64,000 nucleotides of DNA, taken from NCBI GenBank assembly GCA_001885315.1, contig MLPZ01000015.1, forward strand, positions 1 through 64,000, read 5' to 3'. A model generated the notes under the pieces. It saw only the letters and a program-made list of their open reading frames with translations. It did not search any database and was not told where the DNA came from. Shown here piece by piece: positions 49,526-61,553 of the stretch (the first letter of the stretch is position 1; each line of letters starts with the position of its first letter). The translations under genes were made by a program, and so were the position numbers. Origin of the DNA: Treponema sp. CETP13 (GTDB lineage Bacteria; Spirochaetota; Spirochaetia; Treponematales; Treponemataceae).

Positions 49526-50839
49526 TTAGATTTCTGCTAAAACCTCTTCTAACTTTACCAGTTCTTCTTTTATTTGTTCAATAGTAATAATAAGAGGAGG
49601 ATTAACAAAAATCATATTTTCATGAGAATAAGTCATAAATCCTTTAGCTTTTAATTTACCAACTAATTTACTCATAACACCTTCTGGATCATACCCATAT
49701 TCAACCAAAGGCTCTTTTGTTGTTTTGTCTTTAACTAACTCTACAGAAGAAAACAGTCCGATATGTCTAACATCCCCTACACAATCGTATTTTTCTGCTA
49801 TCTCATCAAGTCTTTTTGCAAGATATTCGCCTGATTTTTTAACATTATCTGCAATTTTAGCTTCTTCATAATAGTTAACACAAGCAACACCTGCAGCACA
49901 ACCAAGAGGATGGCCACTGTAAGTAAGTCCACACGAAAGTAAATTATCGTCAAAATATGCTGCAATTTTTGAAGAAACCGCAACTCCACCTAATGGGACA
50001 TAACCACATGTAACACCTTTTGCAAATGTTACAATATCTGGTACAACATCAAAATTTTCGAAGGCAAAACAAGTTCCGGTACGATACCATCCAGCCATAA
50101 CTTCATCAACAATCATTAAGATGCCATATTTATCACAAAGTTTGCGAACCCCTTTCATATAGCCCTTTGGTGGAATAATAACACCATTAGAGCCGGTAAT
50201 TGTTTCCATTACAATAGCTGCAATAGCATCTCTGCCTTCATATTGTATTTGCTCTTCAAGTTTATCAACATAATAGGCTACTGCATCTTCTTCGCTTTCA
50301 AAAGGTAATTTTTCACGATACAAATATGGATCAAAAAATTTGATAAATCCAGGAACACCTGGTTCCAACGCAAAGCGACGAGGTTCACCCGTAAGATTTC
50401 CAGCGCCAAAAGTCGAACCATGATAACTGCGATAGCGACTCATTATTTTGTTACGCCCAGTAAACATGCGTGCCATTTTAACAGCATTTTCGTTTGCATC
50501 AGCTCCACCATTAGTAAAAAATATTTTGCCAAAACTGTCTGGTAAAAGAGAGATAACCTTCTCGGCTAAAGTTGCACGTGAAATATCAGCATATCCTGGT
50601 CCAATATAACAGTATTGATCCACTTTTGCCTTAATGGCATCTCCAATGGCTTTGTTACCAAAACCAACATTGACGTTTACTAATTGGGAAGACATATCAG
50701 TATATCTTTTTCCATCATAATCCCAAAAATATATACCTTCAGCTTTTTGCACTGCTATAGGGTTTATATTTGCCTGCTTGCTCCATGATTGGAGGTTGTA
50801 TTTTTTTTGTTTTTCTGTAATTTCTTTTCCAGTCATCAT
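49526..50839 (-). CDS. Class III aminotransferase, beta-alanine:pyruvate type
   Basis: A 437-residue PLP enzyme. PLP-lysine in VTFAKGVTCGYVPLGGVAVS, Asp in LMIVDEVMAGWYRTG, and the phosphate-binding GGADANENAVKMAR. The family transfers amino groups of beta-alanine, 4-aminobutyrate or taurine-like amines to pyruvate. Position directly after the beta-alanine-forming amidohydrolase gives the substrate. Gene is intact; GGAAA precedes the ATG. Confidence 0.9.
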   Translation of the reverse strand: MMTGKEITEKQKKYNLQSWSKQANINPIAVQKAEGIYFWDYDGKRYTDMSSQLVNVNVGFGNKAIGDAIKAKVDQYCYIGPGYADISRATLAEKVISLLPDSFGKIFFTNGGADANENAVKMARMFTGRNKIMSRYRSYHGSTFGAGNLTGEPRRFALEPGVPGFIKFFDPYLYREKLPFESEEDAVAYYVDKLEEQIQYEGRDAIAAIVMETITGSNGVIIPPKGYMKGVRKLCDKYGILMIVDEVMAGWYRTGTCFAFENFDVVPDIVTFAKGVTCGYVPLGGVAVSSKIAAYFDDNLLSCGLTYSGHPLGCAAGVACVNYYEEAKIADNVKKSGEYLAKRLDEIAEKYDCVGDVRHIGLFSSVELVKDKTTKEPLVEYGYDPEGVMSKLVGKLKAKGFMTYSHENMIFVNPPLIITIEQIKEELVKLEEVLAEI

Positions 50840-50859: not shown

Positions 50860-52122
50860 TTAGTCTTTATCTGCTTTTAACACTGCATTCATCATAACTG
50901 TTGCACCAGCTGTGCATTGTTCAGGGGAAGAATATTCTGGTTCACAATGGCTTAATCCATCTTTTGATTGAACAAAAATCATTGTAGTTGGCATCATGTA
51001 AGCTGCAAATTGTGCATCATGTCCTGCTCCAGAATGAATGTACTGATGTGAAACCCCTGCTTCTTCTGCTGCTTCTTTTACATACGAAACTAGTTTTTTA
51101 TCCCAGTAAACAGTATCACGATTCCAAGCTTTTTCTACAGTACAAGAGCAACCACTCCATTCTTTATCTGCACACCCTTTAACAATAGCAAGAACTTTAT
51201 CAAGAACTTTTGGATCTTCGTGTCGCACATCAATACAAAAATCAAAGTAATCTGGAACACAAGTATGAACACAAGGATGGCAAGAAACTTCGCCTGTAGT
51301 GTATACAAGTTCTGGATGCCCAAGGGCGTCGATTTCTTTATGTAAATACACAATTGCTTGTGATGCTGCAAAAAATGCATCTTTACGTTTTGGCATAGGA
51401 AATGTTCCTGCATGAGTTGTTTGTCCATAAAATTTTACCCGATAATTAAACATACCAAGAACACAATCTACAACTCCAACATCATTTCCCGCATCTTCTA
51501 GAATAGGGCCTTGTTCAATATGAGTTTCAAACATGCACATATAATCGTCTGGATTTAAGCGATTTTTTTCATCACCTTTAAAACCTGATTTTTCAAGAGC
51601 TTCACCAAAAGTAGTTTTACCTTCTAAAACGTCTTTAGTTGCAAGCATATCTTCTTTTTTAAATTTTTCTTTAATATCGTCTGGAAGATAATCATAACAA
51701 ACAATACCCGAACACATCATAGCTGGTGGATATAAAGATCCTTCTTCGTTTGTCCAAACCATTGCAGTGATAGGATGTTTATGTTCGATTTTTTCTGCAT
51801 GAATGGTTTCTAAAGCTTCCATTGCACTCATTACACCTAAAATTCCGTCATAGTTTCCACCATTTTTAACAGAGTCAACATGAGAAGCCATTACAATACG
51901 TTTTGCATCTGGATCAGTTCCTGGAAGAGTCGCATACAAGTTAGCAACATCATCAATTTCAATTTTAGCACCAATAGCTTCCATGCGTTTAATAAACTCA
52001 TTGCGAGCCAAGATTGCTTCGGGTGAAAGAGAATAACGTGTTATTCCACCATGCCCTGCATCACCATACTTTGCAAAAGTGATAATTTTATCTGTCATTC
52101 TTTCTAAACTGCATTTATACAT
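50860..52122 (-). CDS. Zn-dependent M20 amidohydrolase (N-carbamoyl-beta-alanine / allantoate type)
   Basis: A 420-residue enzyme of the hydantoinase/carbamoylase family. Metal ligands are visible in MASHVDSVKNGGNYDGILGV (His, Asp), WTNEEGSLYPP (Glu) and IHSGAGHDAQFAA; FETHIEQGPILEDAG has the substrate-binding Glu. It would cleave N-carbamoyl-beta-alanine to beta-alanine, CO2 and ammonia, between dihydropyrimidinase and aminotransferase. A strong GGAGG precedes the start. Allantoate amidohydrolase activity cannot be excluded. Confidence 0.9.
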   Translation of the reverse strand: MYKCSLERMTDKIITFAKYGDAGHGGITRYSLSPEAILARNEFIKRMEAIGAKIEIDDVANLYATLPGTDPDAKRIVMASHVDSVKNGGNYDGILGVMSAMEALETIHAEKIEHKHPITAMVWTNEEGSLYPPAMMCSGIVCYDYLPDDIKEKFKKEDMLATKDVLEGKTTFGEALEKSGFKGDEKNRLNPDDYMCMFETHIEQGPILEDAGNDVGVVDCVLGMFNYRVKFYGQTTHAGTFPMPKRKDAFFAASQAIVYLHKEIDALGHPELVYTTGEVSCHPCVHTCVPDYFDFCIDVRHEDPKVLDKVLAIVKGCADKEWSGCSCTVEKAWNRDTVYWDKKLVSYVKEAAEEAGVSHQYIHSGAGHDAQFAAYMMPTTMIFVQSKDGLSHCEPEYSSPEQCTAGATVMMNAVLKADKD

Positions 52123-52176: not shown

Positions 52177-52587
52177 CTATTCGTTATATGGGTGAATACA
52201 GTTCTTTAATAACGCATCCACTTCTTCATTAGTTACCTGATAGAACATCTCTCCACCATCATTTAATACAATTGATAAAAGGAAGGCGTCATCCCAATCT
52301 GTAAGGTAAATATGTCTAATAATATCTGTTCCATCCATACGACGACGTTCACTTTTGTTTATCGCAATAAGTTTTTCTCCCATTCGTATAAACGCATGTA
52401 CAAAGCAGCCACCAGAAAGACAATATTCAGTTGGAGGGCGATGATCCTTGTTAAATTCTATTGTTACTGGTATTTCTGTAATGCCCCCACTTATAGCCCG
52501 AATTTCACTATTAATAATCCTAAAATTAGCAACCGGCAATATGCTCTCTAATGCTATTTTTTTAGCTTTCTTAAATCTGTTAATCAC
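52177..52587 (-). CDS. Uncharacterised 136-residue protein of the pyrimidine locus
   Basis: I do not recognise this family. It is a soluble mixed alpha/beta protein with no signal or Cys motif; notable segments are SGGCFVHAFIRMGEKLIAIN, ERRRMDGTDIIRHIYLTDWDDAFLL and CIHPYNE at the end. Its ATG overlaps the preA stop (ATGA), and 54 bases separate it from the amidohydrolase gene, so it is made with the enzymes. It may be a small accessory or regulatory subunit, but that is inference from coupling alone. Confidence 0.8.
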   Translation of the reverse strand: MINRFKKAKKIALESILPVANFRIINSEIRAISGGITEIPVTIEFNKDHRPPTEYCLSGGCFVHAFIRMGEKLIAINKSERRRMDGTDIIRHIYLTDWDDAFLLSIVLNDGGEMFYQVTNEEVDALLKNCIHPYNE

Positions 52588-54116
52588 GCCTGTACCTCCT
52601 GTTCGAAAGTCATTTTTTGCTTTTGCTGTAATCTAGGTTTTGCAATCCGTTTGCTATCACTTATTGCACCTACTGGACAAACCAATTTGCAAAGATGACA
52701 TCCAACACATTTGTTTCCTAAAAGTTTTGGAGTTCTAGATTCAACATCAAAAGAAATCGCTTGATGACCCGCATCGCTACATGCAATATAACAACGACCA
52801 CAGCCAAGGCATTTTTCTTGATTAAACTTTGGGAAAACTATCGTTTCTCGATTTAATTTATCTGAGGAAATAACATTCTTATTTGCCATTCCAACCATTT
52901 CTGAAATAGAATTAATTTTATGCTCAACCATATAAGTCTCTATTCCAGCTTTTAAATCGTTAATGATCCGATATCCATATTGCATAACCGATGTTGTAAT
53001 TTGCACATTGCCACAACCAAGAGCAATAAACTCCAAAGCATCACGCCAAGTTTCTATGCCGCCCATGCCACTTAAAGGAATGTCTTTTAATTGTTTGCAA
53101 TCTGCCATTTCACTTATAAATCGCAATGCAATTGGTTTTACAGCTTTCCCAGAATACCCAGAAATAGAAGATTTACCGTTTATGTTTGGAAGAGCAACCA
53201 TTGTTTCTAAATCGAGCCCCGAAAGACTTTTAATTGTATTTATTGCTGCAATACCATCCGCACCACCTTCTACAGCTGCTATTGCAGGAATTTCCATATT
53301 ACCGATATTTGGCGTCATTTTTGCCAAAACAGGAAGACTTGTTCCTTTTTTAACTAATTCGGTGTATCGTTTAACAAGTTCTGGATTTTGACCAACATCA
53401 GATCCTAATCCGTCTCCACTCATATGAGGACATGAAAAGTTACATTCAATAATATCCGCACCAGCCTGTTCTGAAAGTTGCGCTAATTTTGTCCATTCTT
53501 CGTCGGATTGCCCCATGATTGAAACAACCATAATCTTTTGGGGAAAATCACGTTTTAAATCCGAAATAAATTGAAGATTTTCTGTAAGGCTGTGTTCGGC
53601 AATTTGTTCTAGATTTCTAAAACCTATAAAAGGAGTCCCTTCTTTGCGTACAGTAGAAAAACGAGGAGAAACTTCTTTAGGTGTTAAGAACCCAATGGTT
53701 TTAAAAACCACTCCTGCCCATCCCATTTCTAAAGCGTTTTTGCACATTTCGTAATTACTTGCTACGACAGAAGAAGACAAGAAAAATGGATTTTCACATG
53801 CAACACCCATAAAAGAACATGACAAATCTGCCTTTCGCGGTTGTAAATCCCAACCTGAAAGAACCGAAGCTGTCTCTTTTATTCGCATTGGAAAATCATA
53901 ATGAATACAAGCTTTTTCGCATTTTGCATCACAATCTGCACAAAGAGTTGGATTAAAGTTTTTCCCAACTCTTTGATTTTCAAATCGTAAAGAAAACAAC
54001 ATTGCTGCAGGATCATTAGATTTATCACATGCCGCTGTACAAGGTGCATTGTTGCAGAGTAAGCAGCGATTTGCTTCGTTTGTGGGTAATTTATTTTTAT
54101 AGTTTACTGTGTCCAT
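52584..54116 (-). CDS. preA: Dihydropyrimidine dehydrogenase PreA-like, with N-terminal Cys-rich domain
   Basis: A 510-residue protein. Residues 1-95 carry a GltD/PreT-type Fe-S motif set (CLLCNNAPCTAACDKSND; CADCDAKCEKACIHYDFP). Residues 98-410 form the FMN barrel with the catalytic-Cys region ECNFSCPHMSGDGLG and GMGGIETWRDALEFIALG. The C-terminus has two ferredoxin motifs (CLGCGRCYIACSDAG; CVGCHLCKLVCPVGA). It reduces uracil/thymine, or runs in reverse. A PreT-like FAD/NAD(P)H subunit is not present in the locus. Confidence 0.92.
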   Translation of the reverse strand: MDTVNYKNKLPTNEANRCLLCNNAPCTAACDKSNDPAAMLFSLRFENQRVGKNFNPTLCADCDAKCEKACIHYDFPMRIKETASVLSGWDLQPRKADLSCSFMGVACENPFFLSSSVVASNYEMCKNALEMGWAGVVFKTIGFLTPKEVSPRFSTVRKEGTPFIGFRNLEQIAEHSLTENLQFISDLKRDFPQKIMVVSIMGQSDEEWTKLAQLSEQAGADIIECNFSCPHMSGDGLGSDVGQNPELVKRYTELVKKGTSLPVLAKMTPNIGNMEIPAIAAVEGGADGIAAINTIKSLSGLDLETMVALPNINGKSSISGYSGKAVKPIALRFISEMADCKQLKDIPLSGMGGIETWRDALEFIALGCGNVQITTSVMQYGYRIINDLKAGIETYMVEHKINSISEMVGMANKNVISSDKLNRETIVFPKFNQEKCLGCGRCYIACSDAGHQAISFDVESRTPKLLGNKCVGCHLCKLVCPVGAISDSKRIAKPRLQQKQKMTFEQEVQA

Positions 54117-54150: not shown

Positions 54151-55503
54151 TTAGCTTAATTTTCGTTTTATAAACTTTCCGTAACCTGCTTCACCTAAAA
54201 ACTCTCCATCCTTATAAACCATACGACCTCGTGAGAATGTCATTTCTGGATATCCCGTAAGTTTTGTTCCTTCCCAGATTGTATGGTCATAATCAGAATG
54301 CATAGCATCGCACGTTACCGTAAAGTCTTTTTTGGGGTCGTAAATGACAATATCTGCATCTTTGCCAACTGCTAAACTACCTTTATCTTTACATCCAAAT
54401 ATTTTTGCAGGATTTGAAGAACAAACTTCAACTGCTTTATTAAAAGTAATTTCACCTTTGTTTGCTTTGTCGAGCATGTACGGATACATGTTCTCAACAC
54501 CAGCACAACCGTTTGGTATTTTACTAAAATCGTCTTTTCCCCAGTCTTTTTCACTTTGCATAAATGGACAATGATCTGTTGCAACAACATCAATATCACC
54601 ACGTTTTAGAGCAGACCACAAAGCATCTTGGCTTTCTTGCCCTTTCATTGGCGGAGAACAAACAAAGTTTCTTCCATCGTCTCGTTTGTACACATCACTG
54701 GTAAAGTTTAAATACTGTGGACACGTTTCTGCAAAAATTGAATACCCTTCCTCTTTAGCTTTCGTTACAGCTTCTACACCCTGTTTATTTGCAAGATGCA
54801 CAATATACAGTTTTGCACCTGTTTCTTTTGCCCACTGAATAGCACGTAAATCTGCTTCACCTTCGACAAATTCTGGTCTAGAAAGATAATGATACCAAGG
54901 ACTTGTTTTCCCTTCTGCCAAAAACTTTTTAACGTTATAGTTAACCATTTCGTTGTTTTCTGCATGTACCGAAATCATCGCCCCAATTTCTTTTGATTTT
55001 TGAAGCACTTGATAAAATACACCATCTGAAACACCAAAATCGTAAACCATAAAGACTTTAAATGAAGGAACACCATATTCAACCGCATCTTTCATTGAAT
55101 CCAAAAGCTCTCCGTGAATATCTTTTACACCAATATGAAAAGCATAATCTACTGCAGCTTGGGGAGCAGCTATTGCATCACGACGTTTAATAACATCTAC
55201 CATGGGTTCATCAAAATCTTGCAATGCAAAATCAAAAACAGTTGTAGTTCCACCACAAGCGGCTGCTCTAGTTCCTGCAAAATAATCATCAGAAGAAATA
55301 GTTCCGCCAAAAGGCATAGCAAGATGCGTATGAGCATCGATTGCTCCCGGAAGTACATATTTCCCTTTAGCATCTATTACTTTTGTGGCATTTGTGCCTA
55401 AATCACTACCAATATCCGTAATTTTTCCATCACTAACTGCAATATCAGCCTTATATGTTTCTGACGCGGTTACTAACAGTCCGTTTTTAATAATTAAATC
55501 CAT
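54151..55503 (-). CDS. hydA: Dihydropyrimidinase (D-hydantoinase)
   Basis: A 450-residue cyclic amidohydrolase that opens dihydrouracil to N-carbamoyl-beta-alanine. Zinc ligands: DAHTHLAMPFGG (HxH), carbamylated Lys in GVPSFKVFMVYD, ISVHAENNEM, YIVHLANKQGV and Asp in VVATDHCPFMQ. Length is normal. It is the first catabolic enzyme gene after the importer genes and precedes preA. Confidence 0.95.
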   Translation of the reverse strand: MDLIIKNGLLVTASETYKADIAVSDGKITDIGSDLGTNATKVIDAKGKYVLPGAIDAHTHLAMPFGGTISSDDYFAGTRAAACGGTTTVFDFALQDFDEPMVDVIKRRDAIAAPQAAVDYAFHIGVKDIHGELLDSMKDAVEYGVPSFKVFMVYDFGVSDGVFYQVLQKSKEIGAMISVHAENNEMVNYNVKKFLAEGKTSPWYHYLSRPEFVEGEADLRAIQWAKETGAKLYIVHLANKQGVEAVTKAKEEGYSIFAETCPQYLNFTSDVYKRDDGRNFVCSPPMKGQESQDALWSALKRGDIDVVATDHCPFMQSEKDWGKDDFSKIPNGCAGVENMYPYMLDKANKGEITFNKAVEVCSSNPAKIFGCKDKGSLAVGKDADIVIYDPKKDFTVTCDAMHSDYDHTIWEGTKLTGYPEMTFSRGRMVYKDGEFLGEAGYGKFIKRKLS

Positions 55504-55584: not shown

Positions 55585-56691
55585 CTATTTTTTGTATACA
55601 AGAAGTAATCCTGATCGTTGATAAATCTGTGCAACTTCTAAAAGTCCCATTCCTGCAGCATCTGCAGAAATCATGTTAGAAACCCAGGTAACACCAAAAT
55701 CAACAGTACCATTGTAAACAGCAGTTGTTTCTGCAATATCTCCACCACCAGGAACAATTGTTACATCCAGCCCAAGATCTGAGTAATAGCCTTTATCAAG
55801 TGCCATGTAATAACCCATAAATTGACTCTGTGGTAACCACTTAAGTTGTACTTTAACGGCTGTTTTTTCAGGAGTTCCCAAATCACTTCCATCAGTAGAT
55901 GCAGTCGCAGCTTCCCAGTATGCAGTATCACGAATATCATCAAGCGTTAAACTTGCAAGTTTATCTGCAGCTTGGCTATCATCAAGTTTGATATAAGCTT
56001 GTGCAAGTTCAAGAGTCTGTTGCATTGCATCATCATCCATATATCCATAGTTTGAAACAGGATTTCCATCAGTATCAGTTTCTACAAGTTTTTTTACTTC
56101 ACTGGCCATATACAACTGGTGGCCTGAAGAAACAGATGATCCATATTTATACACAACCTCAGCAGCTTCTTCGGGATCTGCACAAGCATCTGCCCAACCT
56201 TTAAGAGATGCATACACAAATGCTTTTACTGTATTTGGATTTGCTTCTGCAAACTCCTTAGAACAAAAAAGGTTATCTTCTAACATGGCAACACCTTCAT
56301 CATTCATGTCAATTACATCAACATCATCGCCATATCCATAAGCTCCATCGTAATCATTTTTTACAAGACCTAATTCATTGTAAGTCATTGCTGATGCAAG
56401 AGTTATAGACCCATCATCGAATCCATCCATAGTAAAATCCTGGCTTAAAAACTCAAGTGGAAGATTATATTTAGCAAGTAATGCTAAAATTTCATACTCA
56501 TTACCAAGACCCCAGTTTCCTATTTTCCCAGCTGCAGAAGCTGCAATTACGCGATCTTTATCGCTCATAGCTACAGAAGTTGTAGCTGGTTCTGTTTTAG
56601 TACTTTCTTTTTTTGTACAAGCAGTAAAACTTAGGATAACAGTGGCTGTAAGCGCAATAAATGCTGCTTTTTCAATGCTTTTTCTTTTCAT
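55585..56691 (-). CDS. NMT1/THI5-like ABC importer binding lipoprotein, circularly permuted
   Basis: A 368-residue lipoprotein (lipobox TAC, Cys at 25). The order of the binding fold is rotated. Residues 55-262 correspond to the usual C-terminal two thirds (GKIGNWGLGNEYEILALLAK; SAMTYNELGLVKN; VIDMNDEGVAMLEDNLF; ends AYWEAA). After a ~16-residue linker, residues 279-368 are the part that is normally N-terminal (VKVQLKWLPQSQFMGYYMAL; YNGTVDFGVTWVSN; QIYQRSGLLLVYKK) and the protein stops there. It is one uninterrupted frame with a normal signal. It probably still folds, with the break at the hinge between lobes. Ligand: likely a pyrimidine or hydantoin-like ring. Confidence 0.9.
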   Translation of the reverse strand: MKRKSIEKAAFIALTATVILSFTACTKKESTKTEPATTSVAMSDKDRVIAASAAGKIGNWGLGNEYEILALLAKYNLPLEFLSQDFTMDGFDDGSITLASAMTYNELGLVKNDYDGAYGYGDDVDVIDMNDEGVAMLEDNLFCSKEFAEANPNTVKAFVYASLKGWADACADPEEAAEVVYKYGSSVSSGHQLYMASEVKKLVETDTDGNPVSNYGYMDDDAMQQTLELAQAYIKLDDSQAADKLASLTLDDIRDTAYWEAATASTDGSDLGTPEKTAVKVQLKWLPQSQFMGYYMALDKGYYSDLGLDVTIVPGGGDIAETTAVYNGTVDFGVTWVSNMISADAAGMGLLEVAQIYQRSGLLLVYKK

Positions 56692-56744: not shown

Positions 56745-57557
56745 TTATTTTCTAGTTCTATTTTTCATAACAACGCTTTCAACAAAAAGCAATAAAACGT
56801 AAAGTACAATTCCAAGAAGACACGATACGATTATGTATGCCCATGCTGTCGCAAATTGCGCTGTTACAACATTTTCTCTTATCTGACGACCAACACCGAT
56901 TACCTTTTCTGAAAAATATTCTGTAACCAATGCAGAAATAATACTTCCCGGAAGACTAACCCTTAATGCGGTAAACACATACGGGACACTATTTGGGAGT
57001 CGCAATTTTCTAAAAATCGTAAAATTACTTGCTGCATATGTTTTCATAAGATCACTCGAAAACGGCTTTAATTCTGTTAAGCCTCTATATGCATTCACAG
57101 ACATACCTGCAATACAAACAATCATTACTACCAATGTTTTTGCAAACATTGAACGAAAATCTACACTATCAGAAATTTGCTTAGTCAAATTGTTAACAAC
57201 CGGGGCTAAGGCAACAATAGGGACCGCGTTAAAAGCTGCCGCTAATGTTATTCCTCCAGCCCCCCATTTTTTATGTTCCGCTGCAATAATCGCAACGCCA
57301 TATCCAATTAAAGAACCAAACAACAATCCTGTTAGAGCTACAAAAACAGTAGCTTTAAGATTTAACAAAACTTTTGAGATATTATCTCCAATTATCGAGT
57401 TAATTCGACTCGGTGGAGGTAATGTATTTGTATCCGTACTAAGAAGAACATTTAATATGCCTCCCTGCCACAAAACAAAAATTAGTATTCCAAAAAGTAC
57501 AGGAAACAGAATTGTTGACACTGCATTCCAACGTTCATTTATTTGTTTTCTAATCAC
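56745..57557 (-). CDS. ABC importer permease (second), NMT1/SsuC type
   Basis: A 270-residue permease with about six membrane spans and the binding-protein-dependent transport motif. The EAA-like loop is MKTYAASNFTIFRKLRLPNSVPYVFTALRVSLPGSIISALVTEY. It pairs with the neighbouring permease and the ATPase. It starts three bases after that permease gene ends. Confidence 0.92.
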   Translation of the reverse strand: MIRKQINERWNAVSTILFPVLFGILIFVLWQGGILNVLLSTDTNTLPPPSRINSIIGDNISKVLLNLKATVFVALTGLLFGSLIGYGVAIIAAEHKKWGAGGITLAAAFNAVPIVALAPVVNNLTKQISDSVDFRSMFAKTLVVMIVCIAGMSVNAYRGLTELKPFSSDLMKTYAASNFTIFRKLRLPNSVPYVFTALRVSLPGSIISALVTEYFSEKVIGVGRQIRENVVTAQFATAWAYIIVSCLLGIVLYVLLLFVESVVMKNRTRK

Positions 57558-57560
57558 AAT

Positions 57561-58391
57561 TTACCTCTTACATGCTCGTTCTGCTTTTTTATGGGGTGAA
57601 AAAACATCTTCAATAACTCCCATAAGTACATAACTCAAAATCCCTATTGCTGCACTAATTATGACAATCAGCCAGAATACATATCGCGTCATTGCACCTT
57701 TCAATGACTGCGATAACAAACAACCAAGACCTATACCACCTTGCAAAGTATCAACCAAAATAGAAGCCGTAATAGCAAGTGGGGCAGAAACCTTTAATCC
57801 AGTAAAAAAGTACGGAATTGTTGAAGGAATAAGCATTTTTATGTATATTTGCCACTTTTTTGCAGCATATGAATACATAAGCTCATGTTTTTCTTCCTCT
57901 ACAGCCTCAAATCCTGCAAGCGTATTTGTCGTAACCGGATAAAAAGTCAAAATAGCCGCTATGATTATTCGACTTTGATCAATATCACCGGTAAATGACA
58001 AAAGGATTGGAGCCATACCCAAAATAGGAATCATTTGAATAAGCATTAAATATGGAAATGCTATTTTTTTTATTCCTGTCGATAAACTCATAAGCAAAGC
58101 AAGTAAAAAACCAATATCAGCCCCAATTGCAAAACCTTGTGCAGAACGAATTAGTGTAACTTTTGCATTTAGCCACACAAGTTGAATCGCCGTTTCACTT
58201 CCGTTTATTTTTTTAGTATCAAAAATAGTTGCTATAATTTTCCAAAAATGTGGCAAGACCTTTTGTGGAGAACGTATATCTGGAGAAGCCTCAACTAAAA
58301 AGGCAACTATTTCCCAAATAACAAAAAAACCTAATGTCCATACAAGTGTAACCAAGTAATTTGAATTTTTTTGTTTTCTCAATTGACTCAT
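57561..58391 (-). CDS. ABC importer permease (first), NMT1/SsuC type
   Basis: A 276-residue permease with six spans (first at residues 14-34). EAA-like loop: MYSYAAKKWQIYIKMLIPSTIPYFFTGLKVSAPLAITASILVD. It lies between the ATPase and second permease, with three-base gaps on both sides. Related to, but clearly distinct from, the second permease. Confidence 0.92.
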   Translation of the reverse strand: MSQLRKQKNSNYLVTLVWTLGFFVIWEIVAFLVEASPDIRSPQKVLPHFWKIIATIFDTKKINGSETAIQLVWLNAKVTLIRSAQGFAIGADIGFLLALLMSLSTGIKKIAFPYLMLIQMIPILGMAPILLSFTGDIDQSRIIIAAILTFYPVTTNTLAGFEAVEEEKHELMYSYAAKKWQIYIKMLIPSTIPYFFTGLKVSAPLAITASILVDTLQGGIGLGCLLSQSLKGAMTRYVFWLIVIISAAIGILSYVLMGVIEDVFSPHKKAERACKR

Positions 58392-58394
58392 ACG

Positions 58395-59174
58395 CTACAC
58401 TCCTTCAAAAGATGAACGAACCTCAACAACCTTTGCCGTATATTCAGGTGTATTCTTAATTTTTATACTTCTCGGTCTCTCAAAATCTACCTCTCTAACA
58501 GCAGATAGACGGCCAGGATGAGGAGACAAAACACAAACTTTATCCGAAAGAAATACCGACTCCGAAATATTATGAGTAACAAACACAATAGTTTTATTCG
58601 TTCTTCGCCAAATATTTAGTAAATCTTCGTGTAATTGCTCCCGAGTAAACTCATCTAATGCAGAAAAAGGTTCATCCATAAATAATATTTCGGGACGAAG
58701 AACTAAAGCTCGCGCAATCCCAACTCTCTGTTGCATTCCTCCAGACAACTGCCCAGGATAGCTATTTATAAATTTTTGTAGACTTACCATTTCAAGCATT
58801 TCTTCTGCTCTCTCGCGGCGCTCTTTTTTTGGTACCCCCATTATTTCAAGAGGCAATTCAACATTCTTAATAACCGTTCGCCAATCGTATAAAACAGGAC
58901 TTTGAAAAACCATTCCATAACGGCCTTTAAGTCTAGCTTCCTTTGGAGTTTCGCCTCCAATACTTATCGTGCCAGATGTTGGCGTTAAAAGATCTGCCAT
59001 TATTCGAAGCAATGTTGTTTTGCCACAACCAGAAGGTCCTACTAACGAAACAAATTCACCCTTCTTAATATCTATAGATACACTTGTTAATGCAGTAATT
59101 TCTTTATCACCACCATTAAATTTCATACCAATATCTTTGAGCAAAATTTCACTTTGTATTTCTGTTACATTCAT
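58395..59174 (-). CDS. ABC importer ATP-binding protein, NMT1/SsuB type
   Basis: A 259-residue ATPase. Walker A GPSGCGKTT, signature [14 protein letters not shown], Walker B ILFMDEPFSALDE, His in VFVTHNISE. The start MNVTEIQ has AAGGAG eight bases upstream; a longer frame would start before that site. It is the first gene of the pyrimidine locus and lies right after a leader with two terminator-like hairpins. Confidence 0.93.
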   Translation of the reverse strand: MNVTEIQSEILLKDIGMKFNGGDKEITALTSVSIDIKKGEFVSLVGPSGCGKTTLLRIMADLLTPTSGTISIGGETPKEARLKGRYGMVFQSPVLYDWRTVIKNVELPLEIMGVPKKERRERAEEMLEMVSLQKFINSYPGQLSGGMQQRVGIARALVLRPEILFMDEPFSALDEFTREQLHEDLLNIWRRTNKTIVFVTHNISESVFLSDKVCVLSPHPGRLSAVREVDFERPRSIKIKNTPEYTAKVVEVRSSFEGV

Positions 59175-59202
59175 AGCAATCTCCTTTCTTTGCAAGGCAA
59201 TT

Positions 59203-59477: not shown

Positions 59478-61553
59478 TTACACCTTAAATAAATCAATTT
59501 CTTTACCTATGCCTAAAATTGATTTGTTTACTTCATGAGAAATATCTTTTAAACGGGTACTGGCATTTTTAATATTTTCTGTATCATCTTCCATTTGTTG
59601 CATCAATTCTTTTATTGCAAGACTGCTTTCTTGCAATAACTGCATAGCTTTTAATATCGATTTATTCCCTTCAGCCATTTCTACAGAAGCATTTTTTACT
59701 TCTGAACTACTATTGTTCATAGCCTCTAATGATTCTAAAATTTGTTTAGAACCAGATTGCTGTTCATCCATTGCAGACTTTATTTGATGTACAAGAGTAT
59801 CGGTTAATTCAATACCTTCAGAAACCATAGAAAATGATCCCTCAGATTCTGCAGATGAACTTACAACAGTTTTAATACGATCTTGAATATTTTTTAATTC
59901 AGTACTTATAGATTTTGATTGTGTTGCAGAATCTTCTGCAAGTTTTCTAATCTCGTCAGCAACAACAGAAAAACCTTTTCCTGCCTCCCCTGCATGTGCT
60001 GCTTCAATTGCGGCATTCATTGCTAAAAGATTTGTTTGAGAGGAAATCTTTTCAATAATTTTATTTGCTTCAACTAACATACCAGACTCTTCTGCAATTT
60101 GATTAATTTGCTGATTTACAAGTGTTTGTTTATCAATTCCAGTACGGGTATTTGTTTCTAGTTTTTGAAATTCTTCTGTCATCTTATCTATAGATTTATC
60201 CACAGATGAAACATTCCCAATTAGCTCTTCTACTGCTGCTGAGGCTTGCGTAACTGCCGCTACCTGATTTTGGACCATATTATCAAAAGAGTTTATGTTT
60301 TGGGAGGTTTGAGCGACAGCACTAGCAGTTTCCTCTATACTTGCAGCTTGGTCATCAATTTTTTGTTTTACTCCAATAATATTATTACTAATTTGAAGAA
60401 CAGCAGTTCCTGTTTCATCAATATCTTGTTGCAATTCTGTATTTACTTTTTCGAGAGTATCTTTTGTTTTTTTTATATTTGTAACAATCGATTGCAGTTT
60501 TTTAATAAATGCATTAAATGCATCAACTAAATGCCCAAATTCATCACCCCGAATAAGTTCTATACTTTTGGTTAAATCAGCATCACCACTGCCGACTTCG
60601 GTAATAGAATTTTCAACATTTTTTACAATTTTTATAATACCACGTAAAATAAAAAAAACTATAACTAAAATCACAATAGCAATCGAACAACTAAATAAAA
60701 TAAAAAAAATACGAATACTATCTGCTGTTTGTTGAATTTCGTTTGTAGGAACAAAAATGCAAGAAACCCAACCTGGAGTACCTTCAATAGAGTCCCAAAC
60801 GACAAGGCCATCTCCTAGTTCTTTATTATCGATAAATTGTGCCCCTTTTTCCGCTGACACTAAATTATTTGCCAGCGTTTCATCACTATAAAGCCTACTT
60901 AATTCAAGTTCACTGTTTGGGGCAGCAATAATAGTTCCTGTCCCGCCTATAATAAACATATACCCGTTTTTTCCAACAATAGTTTGTTTTGTTAAATCTC
61001 TTATTGGATCTAAACCAATCATTGCGGTAAAAAATCCAAATGTATTATTTGATTTATCTATTGCTGCACGAACAACAGGGATTACTATGTTATTTGAAGT
61101 CCGAGATACTAGTATGTCACCAACATACTGCTTTTTCCCGTCTTGTAAGATAGCTTTATAATAATCACGATCGAGGATTCCACCTGTTGAACCCACTAAT
61201 CCAGTATCACGATAGGTTGTACCATCTTTTCCGCAAAAGAACATATAATCGTAGGTTGGATTTCTTATTTCTGAATGATTTTGTAGCCACTCAATCACCT
61301 TAGTTTCATCTCCGGTTTTTACAGCATCAGATGAAGTATACACACGTAAATCAGCACTATACGTTTCGAGCCATTGAGTAACATTTTTTGCAGTTTGAGT
61401 TGCAATACTTTGTGATTGATTTATATACATCTTAGAAATAGCCGGTCGTATAATTTGCATTGTACCAATTATTAATGTTGTAAATAAAGCTATTATTACA
61501 CAACCAACTAATAAGCCTGATTTTAACAAAACACTCATTTTTTTTATTTTCAT
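59478..61553 (-). CDS. Methyl-accepting chemotaxis protein with Cache sensor
   Basis: A 691-residue chemoreceptor. TM1 is at residues ~10-32; a periplasmic dCache-type sensor (~40-275) includes [18 protein letters not shown] and [18 protein letters not shown]2 is at ~282-305; HAMP follows; the C-terminal signalling coil has the strictly conserved tip [35 protein letters not shown]. No CheR-tethering pentapeptide is seen at the C-terminus. Its ligand is unknown; being upstream of the pyrimidine locus on the same strand hints at a related nutrient, but it is a separate transcription unit. Confidence 0.95.

Follow-up and report, generated by a model that had tools for sequence, protein, structure and literature searches.

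Whether a solute-binding protein (SBP) of the NMT1/THI5 family can carry its two halves in reversed order and still serve an importer is the question raised by a gene of Treponema sp. CETP13. The gene lies in a 64,000-nucleotide stretch of contig MLPZ01000015.1 (the window), where a single open frame on the minus strand (55585..56691) encodes a 368-amino acid protein that the original prediction, made from the letters of the DNA, had described as a natural circular permutation. The explanation that is favored, and that is regarded as very probable, is that the protein is a genuine and functional naturally permuted NMT1/THI5 SBP serving as a subunit of a pyrimidine importer, with one in-place origin and subsequent spread of its operon.

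Order of the chain

The designation of the gene product as a circularly permuted NMT1/THI5-type solute-binding lipoprotein draws on the open frame, profile matches and a rotation scan. A lipoprotein signal with lipobox FTAC occupies residues 1 - 25 (56617..56691, minus strand, as for all parts of the gene), and the lipobox Cys25 is invariant in 24 homologues. Residues 53 - 262 (55906..56535), in which GKIGNWGLGNEYE begins at residue 55 and YWEAA forms residues 258 - 262, correspond to canonical lobe 2 and the canonical C-terminal part of lobe 1, an assignment made by matching canonical orthologues past their N-terminal 90 residues (Pfam NMT1 96 - 216). A 16-residue linker, TASTDGSDLGTPEKTA (residues 263 - 278; 55858..55905), then joins the old C-terminus to the old N-terminus, with E275-K276 conserved. 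The final 90 residues (279 - 368; 55588..55857), beginning with VKVQLKWLPQSQ (VKVQLKWLP from 279) and ending with LLVYKK at residue 368, are the canonical N-terminal part of lobe 1, with 46 - 68% identity to canonical orthologue N-termini and a match to Pfam NMT1 profile positions 2 - 80. The lipoprotein signal and single frame had been correctly predicted, and the positions given for the start at 55, YWEAA, the linker and the last segment were all exact.

The swap was evident by three approaches. The Pfam NMT1 profile (PF09084) scores 98 bits against a cut-off of 20.5, but over two stretches, with residues 57 - 176 matching profile positions 96 - 216 and residues 289 - 367 matching positions 2 - 80; the colinear order of the profile (N-lobe, then C-lobe) is reversed. 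It was also found by hhalign that two blocks align in reversed order, each with 100% probability (query 65 - 274 with template 165 - 365, E 8e-70; query 281 - 377 with template 58 - 154, E 4e-41). In the rotation scan, the mature chain was rotated and globally aligned with five canonical orthologues, and the optimum was a start at about residue 260 - 270, scoring 634 - 843 versus 383 - 531 unrotated; shuffled chains gave 16 +/- 8, and canonical-canonical control pairs gained nothing from rotation. Over both segments combined, permuted and canonical orthologues are 46 - 58% identical, and 40 positions are invariant across the two forms. The CETP13 SBP is a permuted variant of the NMT1/THI5 family and not a canonical member: separate alignment of its segments, as had been suggested, matches each of them to the family in reversed order, and the colinear profile alignment named beforehand as evidence against the permutation is excluded by the Pfam and hhalign blocks. 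In annotation, such a protein will show up in a standard family search as two separate matches whose order is reversed.

Distribution and authenticity

A genome-contig scan returned 28 related loci, in 26 of which a single open frame carries the permuted order, broken at the same point as in CETP13. Cultured strains with the permuted form include Acetitomaculum ruminis, Eubacterium oxidoreducens, Defluviitalea phaphyphila and Agathobacter ruminis. A matching SBP occurs in 15 of 348 genomes of the Acetitomaculum family and is permuted in every one; the order of the L035 genome has 4 permuted and 2 canonical forms among 295 genomes, CETP13's own phylum has 4 permuted (CETP13 included) and 2 canonical among 392, and the phylum of Acetitomaculum has 2 permuted (both counted before) and 7 canonical among 398. 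In all, 13 canonical proteins were compared with about 43 distinct permuted ones, the latter occurring in Lachnospiraceae, Oscillospirales, Defluviitalea and spirochaetes. The search of related genomes that had been proposed as a check therefore yielded an arrangement with shared order and breakpoint.

These findings bear on the concern that mis-assembly fused halves of two normal genes, an assembly artefact that the original prediction had named as its possible refutation. The CETP13 genome is a 21-contig draft, which would allow for such an error. However, the arrangement and breakpoint recur in dozens of independent assemblies, including those of the isolates Acetitomaculum ruminis DSM 5522, Eubacterium oxidoreducens DSM 3217 and Defluviitalea phaphyphila Alg1, and the CETP13 genome has no second copy of either half, so that an artefact can be given practically no credence. 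The permuted order is instead a real evolutionary rewiring and not a sequencing error, since dozens of gut bacteria and spirochaetes share it and it resides in the same gene cluster as in canonical relatives. The gene is also under purifying selection, with a dN/dS between the CETP13 and L009 permuted genes of 0.11 for the whole gene and 0.05 for the moved segment.

Operon context and probable ligand

The complete importer operon claimed for the locus was confirmed, with an ABC ATPase (SsuB/TauB/NrtD-like; 58395..59195), permease 1 (57561..58391) and permease 2 (56745..57557) encoded on the minus strand alongside the SBP, an SsuB/SsuC-type set as for other members of the family. On the same strand follow a dihydropyrimidinase (54151..55503; TIGR02033 above cut-off), a PreA-like subunit of dihydropyrimidine dehydrogenase that has a Cys-rich extension at its N-terminus (52584..54116; NF006183 above cut-off, Pfam DHO_dh and Fer4_21), an amidase of the carbamoylase or allantoate-amidohydrolase type (50860..52122; NCBIfam) that from its operon is a probable beta-ureidopropionase, and a class III aminotransferase (49526..50839; NCBIfam) for which beta-alanine is, again from the operon, the probable substrate. 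The operon thus encodes reductive pyrimidine breakdown to beta-alanine and beyond, with the last two steps assigned by context.

Nearly all permuted loci with enough flanking sequence have the order ATPase-permease-permease-SBP-dihydropyrimidinase-PreA-carbamoylase, and many have the aminotransferase nearby; at L080 the enzyme genes run divergently from those of the importer. Elsewhere (L002/L078, L003/L076, L004/L077, spirochaete phylum) the corresponding slot (ATPase-permease-permease-SBP) is filled by canonical SBPs, usually followed by the dihydropyrimidinase, and a canonical SBP of Fusibacter (L034) is also in this slot, in a rearranged operon. Given that the operon genes serve reductive pyrimidine breakdown, a pyrimidine base is the probable ligand, which is made plausible by the best solved sequence relatives of the permuted SBP, 4nmy and 3ix1, that bind thiamin and a thiamin-precursor pyrimidine, respectively. 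From the SBP the ligand, for which uracil, thymine or a dihydropyrimidine are the most likely candidates, would pass to the neighboring ABC importer and so feed the pathway encoded in the operon.

A comparable pathway is the ycdZ-preT-preA-hydA system for pyrimidine and 5-fluorouracil in the gut Lachnospiraceae member Anaerostipes hadrus, which is described without an ABC importer (PMC11036815). The PreA and dihydropyrimidinase chemistry is shared, whereas the CETP13 operon has both a carbamoylase and an ABC importer; a preT gene was not noticed among the genes neighboring preA. The Cys-rich extension of the PreA-like protein resembles the start of PreT, and its electron donor may differ. Between PreA and the carbamoylase in CETP13, L009 and L010 is a 136-amino acid protein (52177-52587 in CETP13) with no Pfam or NCBIfam match and weak (29 - 30%) similarity to part of a larger open frame in L077 and L078. 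In Defluviitalea phaphyphila, permease 2 (L010:3920-4752) appears to be split into two overlapping frames by a frameshift or sequencing error.

Adjoining the CETP13 operon is a dCache_1 chemoreceptor (MCP) gene (59478-61553), and elsewhere an MCP gene was detected near the operon only at L010, L082 and L083; these occurrences suggest pyrimidine chemotaxis. The adjacent gene also gives some basis for a changed role, in which the permuted SBP would, for example, bind ligand for the MCP rather than act as an importer subunit. This is very improbable, as importer genes accompany the SBP wherever a permuted locus has sufficient flanking sequence, the 40 invariant positions span permuted and canonical forms, and two of the other three loci with an MCP nearby (L082 and L083) encode canonical SBPs.

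Origin of the permutation

For the SBP tree, permuted sequences were first put back into canonical order. All 40 permuted proteins fall on one side of a single branch (100/100), with the canonical L076 as neighbor; L005, L036 and L076 have long branches in this tree. A transporter tree of the concatenated ATPase and permeases gave the same permuted/canonical split (100/100), again with L076 next to the permuted side, at weaker support (89/73). Since both trees show the same one-branch split, the permutation most likely arose once, in place within a pre-existing pyrimidine operon, and then stayed with the transporter. The operon with the permuted SBP would later have spread among Clostridia and spirochaetes, and the position of CETP13 with Pleomorphochaeta and Defluviitalea, apart from L079-L081 (spirochaete phylum) in the transporter tree, points to more than one transfer between the two groups.

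The ends of the protein bear on how the order was changed. The new N-terminus retains a helix-like stretch, S-x-E-D-I-I-x-x-A-A, before GKVGNWG that resembles the canonical hinge segment (SGKDITNATKVGNW in L003). After LVYK, 4 - 9 hinge residues are kept in many permuted proteins. Such leftovers at both ends are what would be expected of a duplication later trimmed back inside the hinge, and the route was probably tandem duplication and then loss of the outer parts. The duplication-then-loss route of the original prediction is in this respect consistent with the protein ends, but is a reconstruction from them: tandem-duplicated intermediates (N-C-N orders) were absent among the loci fetched, and a search of the gaps flanking the gene for traces of the lost halves gave nothing above chance at the CETP13 locus and five others.

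Predicted structure

From an alignment of 24 permuted sequences, AlphaFold gave a model of the permuted SBP with a mean pLDDT of 68. The reassembled lobe 1 (residues 138 - 262 and 278 - 358) is mostly at pLDDT 73 - 98 and lobe 2 (55 - 133) mostly below 50, too low for superposing the whole chain in a permutation-aware manner, so that, of the two-lobed type II fold, only lobe 1 is confidently modeled. A canonical orthologue modeled from an equally shallow alignment fails in the same lobe 2 region, and the lobe 2 failure therefore says nothing on the permutation. Residues 131 - 263 of the permuted model fit residues 159 - 301 of 4nmy (2.1 A over 115 residues), and the canonical model fits 4nmy 3 - 301 colinearly (Z 23.3), although the two models are not independent because the alignment for the canonical one consists largely of fragments of permuted proteins. 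Foldseek with the permuted model, in which lobe 2 is weak, returned zero matches at E <= 0.001. The top structural match was OpuAC, which aligns with residues 134 - 360 across the new linker (Z 7.6, 135 residues, 3.9 A), a match below the tool's stand-alone trust level.

The permuted chain is expected to begin at the old hinge, build lobe 2 and then cross into lobe 1, which would be completed by fold-back of the displaced N-terminal 90 residues via a linker of 12 - 16 residues, with the two-lobed binding site retained. A domain-swapped dimer, in which lobe 1 of one chain is completed by the C-terminal 90 residues of another, looks alike at the level of sequence, where intramolecular and intermolecular completion are indistinguishable, and the linker is fairly short. 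Such a dimer is nevertheless judged improbable, given that the monomeric AlphaFold model places both segments in one lobe 1 domain and that the OpuAC alignment, weak as its Z score is, runs straight across the linker.

Comparison with known permutants

Natural circular permutants have mostly been recognized as pairs of very distant proteins. OpuAC and ProX, together with other glycine-betaine-binding proteins (2b4l, 1r9l), are type II SBPs reported to be mutual circular permutants (CPSARST, PMC2395249), and are similar to the CETP13 case as a permutation of a type II SBP that includes the top structural match. They are, however, an ancient divergent pair of another family with less than 24% identity, whereas the CETP13 protein has canonical counterparts of 46 - 58% identity in the same operon slot. 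The canonical SBPs of Fusibacter paucivorans (L034) and of L076, L077 and L078 share this slot and the conserved motifs and differ in chain order. With such close orthologues using the same slot and transporter and separated by one branch, the cost or benefit of the permutation can be tested directly by exchanging one form for the other, and its single origin in place adds to making this an unusually good test case. The ThiY-type protein (3ix1), the Clostridium difficile thiamin-binding protein (4nmy) and yeast Thi5 have the same Pfam family and fold, but are of canonical order with thiamin or a thiamin precursor as ligand.

A parallel in arrangement is TpMglB-2 (Tp0684, PDB 5JX2) of Treponema pallidum, a circularly permuted type I SBP with the first strands of lobe 1 at its C-terminus, common to treponemes and Gram-positive gut bacteria, that keeps ligand binding and conformational change (PMC4990184). 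Both are lipid-anchored SBPs in which the N-terminal part of lobe 1 has come to lie at the C-terminus, after an additional crossing segment. TpMglB-2, unlike the permuted NMT1/THI5 protein, is of type I (cluster B), with a sugar ligand and a different importer, and represents an independent event; 5jx2 is absent from the PDB sequence matches of the permuted SBP, which works like TpMglB-2 but is no member of its family. Permutation is thus not new to the SBP superfamily, as both TpMglB-2 (PMC4990184) and the glycine-betaine-binding proteins (PMC2395249) demonstrate. The claim that no permuted member of the family had been described holds for NMT1/THI5 itself, for which none was found in the PDB or open-access literature, and does not extend to other SBP families; as far as could be searched in these sources, the protein is the first permuted member of the NMT1/THI5 family.

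Tethering to the membrane was proposed by the TpMglB-2 authors as a reason for its permutation (PMC4990184). Applied to the NMT1/THI5 proteins, the permutation would be an adaptation that put distance between the anchor and those residues of lobe 1 that bind the ligand. The new N-terminus does depart from the first strand of lobe 1, the lipid anchor presumably entering beside the hinge and lobe 2, and by lipobox counts nearly all permuted forms are lipoproteins. On the other hand, 11 of 13 canonical relatives are lipoproteins as well, and the signal peptides of L037 and L039, both permuted, lack a lipobox Cys, so that these two are probably soluble periplasmic forms. From the counts in both forms, the permuted order neither requires tethering nor follows from it, and tethering is unsupported as its sole cause; as an explanation it is considered unlikely.

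The CETP13 genome also contains an orthologue of the glucose-binding TpMglB-2 (L102:1069-2265:-; contig C6, about 88141-88752), beside an ABC ATPase gene, which aligns with 5jx2 in one colinear stretch (E 1.4e-178). With both proteins present, one kind of rearrangement has become established separately in two SBP classes that are unrelated to each other, a second independent case in spirochaetes and gut Firmicutes with one genome holding both. It might be speculated, though with rather little confidence, that the permuted SBP outcompeted the canonical form clade-wide through altered hinge dynamics or permease docking, and that the convergence of type I and type II proteins reflects a selectable and general benefit of a chain that begins at the hinge.
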